57,156 bases of DNA from Enhydrobacter aerosaccus (GTDB lineage Bacteria; Pseudomonadota; Alphaproteobacteria; Reyranellales; Reyranellaceae), in the NCBI GenBank assembly GCA_903915535.1, contig CAIWTJ010000200.1:1-57156 (forward strand), in the 5' to 3' direction. Both the position numbers and the translations under genes were made by a program. Shown one piece after another: positions 47,922-56,567 of this stretch. The notes under the pieces were generated by a model, which did no database searches, had not been told where the DNA came from, and saw only the letters and a program-made list of their open reading frames with translations. Numbering within the stretch: the stretch's first letter is position 1; the number at the start of each line of letters is the position of its first letter.

Positions 47922-47952
47922 CAGCGGCCGCCGCCAGCAGTCTCTTTTGACA

Positions 47953-48054
47953 ATCCGAGGGGTGTCCGGTCTTCGTGTAAAGACCGGTCTGAGATGGCCT
48001 TTTGTGGCCGAACCCTTTGAACCTGATCCGGGTCATTCCGGCGTAGGAACGGGA
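47953..48054 (+). ncRNA. TPP riboswitch (THI box) before the thi operon
   Basis: Conserved blocks are easy to see: GGGGTG near the 5' end, CTGAGA (47989-47994), ACCCTTTGAACCTGATC and GGGTCATTCCGGCGTAGGAA. The 3' end CGGGA (48050-48054) pairs with TCCG at 47954-47957 as P1 and overlaps the Shine-Dalgarno GGGAG (48051-48055) of thiO. Bound thiamine pyrophosphate would therefore block translation start. It begins only 32 bases after the BCAT stop, so read-through from that gene is likely. Confidence 0.95.
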
Positions 48055-48062
48055 GTTGTCGA

Positions 48063-49085
48063 GTGAGCGAGTCCAAAGTCATTGTGGTCGGAGCAGGCGT
48101 CGCGGGATTGGCCGCGGCGTTCGAGCTCGTCGAGCGTGGCCTGAAGGTCGAGGTCGTCGACCGCGGCAGCGCGCTGGGCGACGGCGGCTGTTCGTGGATG
48201 GCGGGGGGCATGCTCGCGCCATGGTGCGAGCGCGCCTCGACGGATGCGAGCGTGGCCGAGCTCGGCGCAGCCTCGATCTCGTGGTGGATGAGCAATTTCA
48301 TCGGGACGGTGCAGAGCGGCAGCCTGGTGGTGGCCGCCTCCCGCGATCTGCCGGAGCTCACCCACTTCGCCGAGCGCACCGAGCGCTACGAGTGGATCGA
48401 CGGCGATCGCATCAACGCCCTCGAGCCCGACCTCGCGGGCCGCTTTCGCAAGGCATTTTATTTTCCCGACGAAGCCCATCTCGATCCGCGCCGGGCGCTG
48501 CCGGCGTTGGCCGACCTGCTGAAATACCGCGGTGTCCAGGTCCGGTTCGGTGTCGACTTCCATCCCGCACAGGAGCGCGGCACCCAGATCGTCGATTGCC
48601 GCGGGTTGGCCTCGCGCGACGTGCTCAAGGATCTGCGCGGCGTGCGCGGCGAGATGCTGATCGTTCGGTCGGCCGACATCACCCTGTCGCGGCCGGTGCG
48701 AATCCTGCATCCGCGCATCCCGCTCTACATCGTGCCGCGCGGCGGCGGCGTCTTCATGATCGGCGCCACCATGATCGAAAGTGAATCGCATGCCGGAGCG
48801 AGCGTGCGCTCCACTCTGGAGATGTTGGGCGCGGCCTGTGCGCTCCATCCGGCGTTTGCCGAAGCGGAAATCCTCGAGATCAACACCGGCCTGCGGCCGG
48901 CCTTCACCACCAACCTGCCGGCCATACGGCGGATTGGTTCACGCACGCATTTCGTGAACGGTCTTTTCCGTCACGGCTTTCTGCTTGCACCGGCTATGGC
49001 AAAGCAGGTCGCCGATGCAGTGCTTCACCAAATCCAGGGGACGTCCGATGCGGGTCTTCGTAAACGGCGATCAAAGGGACATTGA
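48063..49085 (+). CDS. thiO: Glycine oxidase ThiO, FAD-dependent
   Basis: 340-aa flavoprotein that oxidises glycine to iminoglycine (dehydroglycine) for thiazole formation in aerobic thiamine synthesis. The FAD motif is VIVVGAGVAGLAAAFELVER; later marks are GCSWMAGGMLAPWCERAS, the substrate-domain YFPDEAHLDPRRALPALADL and the C-terminal INTGLRPAFTTNLPAIRR with NGLFRHGFLLAPAMAKQVAD. GTG start follows GGGAG that the riboswitch controls. Its last 38 bp overlap thiS, so the two are coupled. Confidence 0.9.
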   Translation: MSESKVIVVGAGVAGLAAAFELVERGLKVEVVDRGSALGDGGCSWMAGGMLAPWCERASTDASVAELGAASISWWMSNFIGTVQSGSLVVAASRDLPELTHFAERTERYEWIDGDRINALEPDLAGRFRKAFYFPDEAHLDPRRALPALADLLKYRGVQVRFGVDFHPAQERGTQIVDCRGLASRDVLKDLRGVRGEMLIVRSADITLSRPVRILHPRIPLYIVPRGGGVFMIGATMIESESHAGASVRSTLEMLGAACALHPAFAEAEILEINTGLRPAFTTNLPAIRRIGSRTHFVNGLFRHGFLLAPAMAKQVADAVLHQIQGTSDAGLRKRRSKGH

Positions 49086-55402: not shown

Positions 55403-56146
55403 TTACAGTACCGACAGCATCCGGCCGACCAGCGGATGGCGGACGACATCGGTGTCGACCAGCTTCACCACCGCGACGTCCTCGAAGCCATCGAGGCGAC
55501 GGGAGATGTCGGCCAGACCCGACAGTTCCGGCAGCAGGTCGGTCTGATCGGGATCGCCCGTCATGACCATCGTCGAATGCCAGCCCAGACGCGTCAGCAG
55601 CATCTTGAGCTGACCGTAGGTGCAGTTCTGCGCCTCGTCGATGAGTACGAAGCTGTTGTTGAGCGTGCGCCCGCGCATGAAGGCCACCGGCGCGATCTCG
55701 ATCGTGCCGTCGTCTAGAGCCGCGCGCAGGCGCTTGGCGCCCATGCGGTCGTTCAGGGCGTCCCATAGAGGGCGCAGATACGGATCAAGCTTCTCGCGCA
55801 TGTCGCCCGGCAGAAACCCGAGGTTTTCACCCGCTTCGACGGCGGGGCGGGAGAGCACGATGCGCGACACCGTGCCGGCTTCGAGGGCTTCGACGGCGGC
55901 GCTGATGGCGAGGTAGGTCTTGCCGGTGCCGGCGGGGCCGACGGCGATCGTCAGGGGTTTGCTTTCAATGGCCTCCATGAGGCGGCGCTGATTGTCGCTG
56001 CGGGGTCGTACTTTTCGAACGTAGCTTTGATCCCTGTCATTGGCGGGCGGAGTGCGATCGAAGACCAGGCTGTGGACACGATCGGTGTGGCCACGGTCAT
56101 TCTCGATGGCGTGCAATTTGGCGCGGCGTGCGGCGCGTTTTGCCAT
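55403..56146 (-). CDS. PhoH family ATPase
   Basis: 247-aa PhoH-type P-loop ATPase, shorter than the ~330-350 aa PhoH/YbeZ partner of YbeY. Walker A GPAGTGKT is at 70-77 and Walker B SFVLIDEAQN at 165-174; ENLGFLPGDMREKLDPYLRP and the FMRGRTLNNSF block are diagnostic. The N-terminal 45 residues are basic (MAKRAARRAKLHAIENDRGH). Relatives are linked to RNA metabolism and phosphate or stress response. ATG follows CGGAG. A strong intrinsic terminator ends only 30 bases before the start codon, so read-through must be regulated. Confidence 0.9.
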   Translation of the reverse strand: MAKRAARRAKLHAIENDRGHTDRVHSLVFDRTPPANDRDQSYVRKVRPRSDNQRRLMEAIESKPLTIAVGPAGTGKTYLAISAAVEALEAGTVSRIVLSRPAVEAGENLGFLPGDMREKLDPYLRPLWDALNDRMGAKRLRAALDDGTIEIAPVAFMRGRTLNNSFVLIDEAQNCTYGQLKMLLTRLGWHSTMVMTGDPDQTDLLPELSGLADISRRLDGFEDVAVVKLVDTDVVRHPLVGRMLSVL

Positions 56147-56175
56147 TGGCAGACTCCGGAGACTGTTTGAGAAAC

Positions 56176-56203
56176 AAAAAAGGCCCCCGCGATGCGGAGG
56201 CCT
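56176..56203 (-). terminator. Rho-independent terminator just upstream of phoH (attenuator or sRNA end)
   Basis: Read leftward: AGGCCTCCGC, ATC loop, GCGGGGGCCT, then TTTTTG. A 10-bp stem (one U-G pair) with a T-run, in the direction of phoH and ending about 30 bases before its ATG. There is no room for a separate promoter between terminator and start codon, so phoH either depends on read-through or on an attenuation choice. Confidence 0.8.
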
Positions 56204-56320
56204 GGACTGTCGGTAAAAGGCAGGGTGCGGTTGAGAGGGCACGCGGCGGCGAAACCACCGGTGATCCAAGTTCCGTCAGGGCGCAGCGTCCTTGGACGGA
56301 TAAGCAACCTCCTTTAACTG
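56204..56320 (-). ncRNA. Candidate structured leader or small RNA upstream of phoH
   Basis: The leftward strand upstream of the terminator can fold: TCCAAG/CTTGGA (about 56282 and 56263 regions), a competing CCGTC/GACGG pair, and CGGTGG-TTTCG-CCGCCG hairpin near 56245-56261. It begins near a GGAGG run at 56310. I recognise no known riboswitch or Rfam family. Together with the terminator it could be a regulatory leader of phoH or an independent sRNA. Boundaries are approximate. Confidence 0.4.
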
Positions 56321-56567
56321 ACGAGAATGAGCGTATCGCGAATGTCGCGAAGCGGCCACCAGATTTATGGGGCGCCATCCAAATTTCACACTAGGGGAGG
56401 TTTGGCCGTTCGATTGGGGCGCGGTGCGGGCGAAAGTGTTGCGCCTTTGCCACAGCGGACTGGCAAGCGGTTCCGCTCAAGCAACAAATTTTCATCGAGC
56501 GCCGTTGTGTAGGTGCTGCTTTGGCGGGTCACGAGATTCGCCCGTGTCATTATTACAAGGGATTCCC

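Follow-up and report, generated by a model that had tools for sequence, protein, structure and literature searches.

A conserved structured RNA ending in an intrinsic terminator directly precedes phoH in Reyranella and is most likely its 5' leader

To our knowledge the function of the PhoH ATPase is still poorly defined, and the phoH locus examined here raises the question of whether its transcription is itself gated. The window is the whole stretch of DNA that was analysed (57,156 nucleotides); in it uvrC lies downstream of phoH, and the open frame on the upstream side is divergent. The phoH product has one relative in the PDB (3b85, E 2e-62), and its start codon (ATG at 56146-56144, minus strand) is consistent across 31 aligned loci. 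An original prediction had proposed that the DNA directly before this start codon holds either a transcriptional attenuator or a small RNA whose end abuts phoH. The features on which the argument rests are as follows.

55406..56146, minus strand: phoH, 247 aa, PhoH family ATPase (Pfam PF02562, E 2e-80)
56153..56159, minus strand: CCGGAGT, conserved in the alignment, likely Shine-Dalgarno of phoH
56173..56322, minus strand: candidate leader RNA, a three-way junction plus terminator (covariance model R1, 144 bits; 5' start at ~56322 predicted)
56176..56203, minus strand: intrinsic terminator, left arm holding CCTCC at 56200-56196 (terminator scan and covariation)
56213..56318, minus strand: P1, the helix closing the junction, 56318-56311 with 56220-56213 and one U-U mismatch (covariation, partner-swap test)
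56240..56263, minus strand: P3 hairpin, CACCGGTGG/CCGCCG-C-GTG (97.9% of cells paired, two-sided changes)
56272..56300, minus strand: P2 hairpin, TCCGTC/GACGGA (99.4% of cells paired)
56308..56312, minus strand: GGAGG, overlapping the end of P1, invariant in 58/58 sequences
56330..56335, minus strand: predicted -10 hexamer TACGCT, weak by consensus
56356..56390, minus strand: conserved promoter-side element TGTGAAATTT-N10-CCATAAATCTGGTGG, aligned upstream of the RNA

A stem of 10 bp and a T-run pointing toward phoH had been placed about 30 bases before the start codon, and both are there: the stem (56203-56181) has 10 pairs, 8 of them GC, with a loop of 3, and is followed by a T6 whose last base, read on the sequence, is 56176, leaving 29 nt to the phoH ATG. 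The 1957-nt region has three terminator-like sites where shuffles would give 1.9 ± 1.6, a number that carries no significance by itself; the phoH terminator is the longest of the three, the other two having 6 and 5 pairs. Upstream of it at least two hairpins had been expected, which we recover as P2 and P3 together with the closing helix P1, and the RNA from 56322 to 56176 (~147 nt) folds at -63.2 kcal/mol (z -3.79, with 0 of 200 shuffles as good). The GGAGG run and the CCTCC in the terminator stem, named as possible partners, are likewise present (56312-56308 and 56200-56196). The interval originally given, 56146-56320, located the RNA nearly correctly; the covariance-model match spans 56173-56322.

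The RNA had been described as belonging to no recognized class, and Rfam agrees, with no family above its gathering cut-off in the region. At gathering threshold the whole window returned only a TPP riboswitch at 47948-48066, the best match in the phoH upstream region at a permissive threshold reached 19.8 bits against a gathering value of 55, and 20 other phoH loci gave 0 matches. The suhB/mmgR sRNA (RF00519) shares a GC-rich terminator hairpin with this RNA and scores 16.6 bits against a gathering value of 41, with mainly the terminator aligning. 6S RNA (RF00013), which resembles the leader in length and stability and occurs in the same genomes, was rejected because it lies in a different place (G000:C71) and has no match at phoH. 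Mimicry of the 16S rRNA 3' end by GGATCACC was also dropped, as these bases are variable among the sequences (GGACCACC, GGTTCACC) and are accounted for by J2/3 together with the P3 strand. No title on a phoH leader or attenuator appeared among the literature matches listed, and phoH is absent from the main text of PMC9549626.

How widely does the RNA occur? A blastn search with a 191-base query detected the element in 51 of 61 genus genomes (just 27 nt in G025), and the same bases gave two short matches only among 40 genomes outside the genus. Of 65 genus genomes, 60 contain the RNA according to covariance model R1 (scores of at least 126.9 bits), with one strong copy in each and two in the window's genome; three genus genomes have one additional weak match each (26.7-31.4 bits). 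The cultured strains R. soli NBRC 108950 (L042) and R. massiliensis 521 (L053) both carry the locus. None of the five genomes without an R1 match offers an intact phoH upstream region: phoH of this kind was not found in G017, G040, and G043, is present as a fragment in G009, and begins at a contig end in G029, where the coordinates equal those of L050 and the contig stops 2 bases before the start. With phoH not found, fragmentary, or at a contig end there, none of the five is a counterexample. The extra copy in the window's genome (L002, contig C131, G000:C131:19871-23056) is 97% identical in the element, and since its flanking phoH (99.6%) and uvrC (97.5%) match as well, we dropped it as a second true copy; it is probably a strain duplicate in the assembly, with two strains in one MAG.

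Across 385 genomes of the class, four genus members were the only genomes above 37.2 bits, and 23 genomes outside the genus gave R1 matches at E 0.01 or better, reaching at most 37.2 bits. On 40 other phoH loci the highest score was 24.8 bits, chiefly from the terminator, apart from L083, which is in the model. In the wider family (Vineibacter terrae L085, Reyranella sp. CPCC 100927 L084, L086) the leader interior is different; judged by eye and from single-sequence folds, these loci retain an AAGGAGG-like start, a CCTCC-bearing terminator, and a matching P1 partner (GCGAAGG/CCTTCGC; CTTGGGG/CCCCAGG).

For a view of the fold, 58 distinct RNA sequences were aligned, the four helices were set as the structure, and pairs were counted. 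P1 was placed by hand, as MAFFT lines up its 3' strand poorly, and the structure is to that extent author-chosen; RNAalifold on the first alignment reported just 4 two-sided pairs, partly owing to misalignment of the P1 3' strand. With kinship ignored, 37 cells changed on both sides compared with 16.0 ± 3.6 after shuffling (0/500 reached 37) and with 8-13 when partners were slid, a control that favours the hand-set structure to some degree. P1 has 81.0% of its cells paired and 4 pairs with changes on both sides, P3 has 97.9% and 4, and the terminator 99.1% and 2. P2 is near-invariant (99.4% paired) with no two-sided change and hence stands outside the covariation support. P1 strands pair better with their own than with swapped partners (-9.20 versus -8.48 ± 0.17 kcal/mol, 0/2000 permutations, kinship ignored), a test in which a simple rule delimited the 3' segment, wrongly so for some rows. 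L083 diverges most among the aligned members, and its P1 forms all 10 base pairs with a different sequence. Covariation in these alignments thus supports the P1, P3, and terminator helices, and the single-stranded parts of the RNA are conserved while P1 and P3 covary.

Similarity among loci is greatest from AAGGAGG to the T-run. The motif used to excise the RNA itself contains GGAGG, and no row failed it. Upstream regions were reduced from 87 to 57 by removing identical ones, and loci with less than 330 nt upstream (e.g., L050) or whose phoH falls short of 80% identity (from L084 on) were left out. The terminator pattern is found in 55 of these 57 regions, and the two misses (L066, L072) show a stem and T-rich tail by eye. 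The structured RNA of the original prediction is conserved, in 60 of 65 genus genomes, and shows covariation in P1, P3, and the terminator.

The arrangement of neighbouring genes bears on whether this RNA belongs to phoH. All 31 loci fetched by the RNA, two of them from the window's own genome, have phoH directly downstream. Upstream neighbours vary: 39 of 54 loci have one co-directional gene, 6 have the window's divergent gene, and 9 have others, and these calls, as well as the control genes used below, rest on a crude ORF caller. The co-directional family (L005 and 38 other loci), presumably a guanine deaminase, ends before the leader, and in the window's group of six an outer-membrane-like gene lies divergently upstream of it.

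The second half of the promoter-side element is also written CCATAAAT in the alignment (TGTGAAATTT-N10-CCATAAAT). Allowing up to 3 mismatches, a search of 21 genomes returned 11 matches, all in 9 of the 13 genus members; no match at that level was found in the other 4 of the 13. Nine matches lie at the phoH locus, one on the duplicate contig, and one elsewhere, near a contig end (G005:C100:86-120). In 54 of 57 relatives GGAGG is preceded, at a distance of 21-24 nt, by a TA[CGA][GC][CA][TG] hexamer; a sigma-70 scan of the region found no promoter. Between the T-run and the ATG there are 21-52 nt in 54 of the 55 sequences with the pattern (94 nt in L021), with just 21-26 nt in several genomes; the best TATAAT-like hexamer in this gap matches at 3-4 of 6 positions in all 57 regions, and clear conservation is confined mainly to CCGGAGT.

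We then compared phoH upstream regions across the class. A protein search of 190 class genomes yielded 31 more phoH-subfamily genes outside the genus at 286.6 bits or more; the next match, at 252.2 bits, was taken as a paralog, the split between subfamily and paralogs being made by score and not by tree. With a terminator defined as a single hairpin of -9 kcal/mol or lower that has a T-rich octamer behind it and lies no more than 150 nt upstream, a scan that misses imperfect stems and depends on guessed starts, all 31 genes were examined and 18 have one. Controls gave 0/20 for phoH paralogs, 3/182 for random windows of the same loci, and 5/81 for other genes, taken from 20 control regions (one of them 9 kb, not 20 kb) and having 170 nt or more of free DNA upstream. 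Fisher's test of 18/31 against 5/81 gives p 1e-8, or 4e-8 when counted as 15/25 families. By the automated criterion 13 of the 31 lack a terminator; L197, L205, and L210 show one by eye and were not added to the 18, which include L193 with a weak 41-nt hairpin.

An EM motif search in 38 upstream regions reached a log-likelihood of 196.7 compared with 85-91 for shuffled regions, a value inflated by related rows. The motif is not universal (14 of 38 regions score less than 9 nats, with five of these around 1 or lower), and in some regions the best site sits at an odd position. Retrained on 30 phoH genes outside the family, with no loci common to the test set, it has the consensus tnGcGTgAaTtTTtngTgAc and places 56 of 57 held-out Reyranella regions above the 95% level and 36 above the 99% level of 500 control windows; the weakest site of the 57 is that of L102. 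In six of the regions the site was located: it falls between -246 and -269 relative to the ATG and coincides with TGTGAAATTT or a variant of it. The left half of the promoter-side element matches this motif learned from other alphaproteobacterial phoH genes.

Class-wide (L187-L213, L245-L247), motif tnGcGTgAaTtTTtngTgAc typically occurs 220-340 nt upstream of phoH and does not resemble the PhoB box present at some pstS genes. A PhoB box as the promoter-side element was considered and is unsupported, a comparison judged by eye only. The E. coli PhoB consensus occurs within 5 mismatches in 4 of 11 pstS upstream regions (best 2, in L221), the other 7 having no consensus match, at least partly from miscalled starts; E. 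coli K-12 phoH has a PhoB-like site by eye and no terminator. The element of alphaproteobacterial phoH genes is a different motif from the PhoB box. More distant phoH genes (L088-L090) show no terminator by eye and have in common a GTGATTC-GAAG-GAGTCAC-like hairpin ~200 nt upstream, possibly another leader type.

From these comparisons, the likeliest reading of the RNA is a 5' leader belonging to phoH. We read it so because the upstream gene changes while the RNA and phoH stay together, because the conserved element and a TACGCT-like hexamer precede the RNA at a near-fixed distance, because the gap from T-run to ATG is short and without a good -10, and because many phoH genes across the class show terminators too. 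A trans-acting sRNA gene whose terminator abuts phoH by chance, with phoH served by its own or an internal promoter, would also account for an RNA that combines a promoter-side element and a strong terminator of its own with a good fold in isolation, and synteny inside one genus is expected of such a gene too. We nonetheless hold it to be unlikely. Off the phoH locus the 65 genus genomes contain no strong copy, merely the three weak matches and the duplicate contig, and outside the genus nothing in the 385 class genomes exceeds the 37.2 bits given above; other alphaproteobacterial phoH genes carry similarly placed terminators behind leaders that R1 does not recognize, and there is scant space for a second promoter between terminator and ATG. 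That the terminator merely ends the transcript of the upstream gene is hardly credible: the called upstream gene is indeed co-directional and of one family in 39 of 54 relatives, but it is divergent in the window and five other members of its cluster, and ~145 nt of conserved RNA with its own upstream element lie in between. Of the two forms originally envisaged, the conserved structured RNA, its conserved terminator, and the cis layout stand, and the attenuator is favoured over the free-standing sRNA.

For the leader itself, we consider it likely on these comparative grounds that transcription terminates by default and that phoH is expressed by read-through, which is probably regulated. Transcription would start immediately past the promoter-side element, ~175 nt ahead of the phoH start codon, and a transcript starting there must pass the terminator on its way to phoH. 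The resulting ~147-nt RNA is predicted to fold into the three-way junction of P1, P2, and P3, and polymerase would stop by default at the terminator ~29 nt before the start codon. PhoH would then probably be made only when polymerase reads through this stop signal, and the fraction of polymerases that do so is probably set by a factor acting on the junction or on the terminator. Leader transcripts that end there may remain as a small RNA. The simplest account is that polymerase stops by default and reads through only in part, perhaps under regulation.

The original prediction had suggested a switch in which GGAGG competes for the CCTCC of the terminator, and the folds do not support it in that form. 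In 58 transcripts cut after the left arm of the terminator, P1-side pairing has a mean probability of 0.83, loosely measured as the 5' strand being paired anywhere in the 3' part, compared with 0.15 for GGAGG:CCTCC; the latter passes 0.5 in 6 of the 58 sequences, and for the window's transcript it is 0.00. No antiterminator of good predicted stability was found in these folds. P1 can coexist with the terminator and so does not by itself block termination. The GGAGG:CCTCC pairing, conserved in sequence and predicted to be energetically weak, would need a bound factor or co-transcriptional timing to act as a switch.

Terminator-type riboswitches consist of a junction closed by a P1 helix and then a terminator, before one gene. 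The phoH leader has the same arrangement, but differs in lacking an Rfam aptamer match or a stable predicted antiterminator. One version of the leader reading would make it riboswitch-like: a ligand or protein that stabilizes P1 would exclude the GGAGG:CCTCC antiterminator and let the terminator form, and without the ligand phoH would be on. The invariance of GGAGG (58/58) where it overlaps P1 fits this, as do the U that the left arm of the terminator keeps in 52 of 58 sequences, as a G-U pair in 45, and the persistence by eye of GGAGG and CCTCC in L084-L086 despite their different leader interior. That U is replaced by C in 6 of 58, however, P1-side pairing wins over the antiterminator in 52 of the 58 folds, the window's among them, and no Rfam riboswitch matches the phoH upstream region, which leaves this version doubtful. 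We rejected a ribosome-coupled attenuator with a leader peptide, in which AAGGAGG, close to the predicted 5' end and much like a strong Shine-Dalgarno, would serve translation of the peptide. No ATG, GTG, or TTG lies 3-13 nt past GGAGG in 57 of 58 sequences, and the length from GGAGG to the P1 3' strand is 79, 80, 81, or 82, in steps not divisible by 3, as is also true of the length from GGAGG to the terminator. With no conserved start codon and non-triplet length changes, such a mechanism is very improbable here; open frames are frequent in the GC-rich leader and uninformative for or against it.

The proposed default-terminating leader has a parallel in its class. UpsM of Rhodobacter sphaeroides is described as deriving from a 268-nt mraZ 5' leader with a terminator before the first gene. 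According to the same paper mraZ has no separate promoter, read-through is estimated at once in 100, the terminated leader is the 206-nt sRNA UpsM, and UpsM is cleaved by RNase E under stress (PMC5089854). The probable phoH leader resembles it as an alphaproteobacterial 5' leader with a terminator before the gene, a comparison by layout only: UpsM precedes mraZ and the dcw cluster, whereas the RNA here precedes phoH. Most likely the phoH leader is an attenuator at which termination is the default, and like UpsM it may give rise to an sRNA.

More tentatively, it is possible that alphaproteobacterial phoH genes are widely attenuated, with a promoter-side element in common and a terminator that closes a fast-evolving leader of ~130-200 nt just ahead of the gene, and that the Reyranella leader is a new junction-type RNA sensing a metabolite, the state of RNA processing, or PhoH. 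A leader that gates phoH by termination and recurs across alphaproteobacterial families would offer a direct handle on the role of PhoH, as whatever relieves termination is likely the condition or molecule to which PhoH responds. Such a leader would in addition represent a new structured RNA family and, within the class, a second case resembling UpsM.

Elsewhere in the window, the TPP riboswitch (plus strand, 73.3 bits) lies upstream of a run of open frames that presumably encode thiamine genes, an ordinary arrangement.
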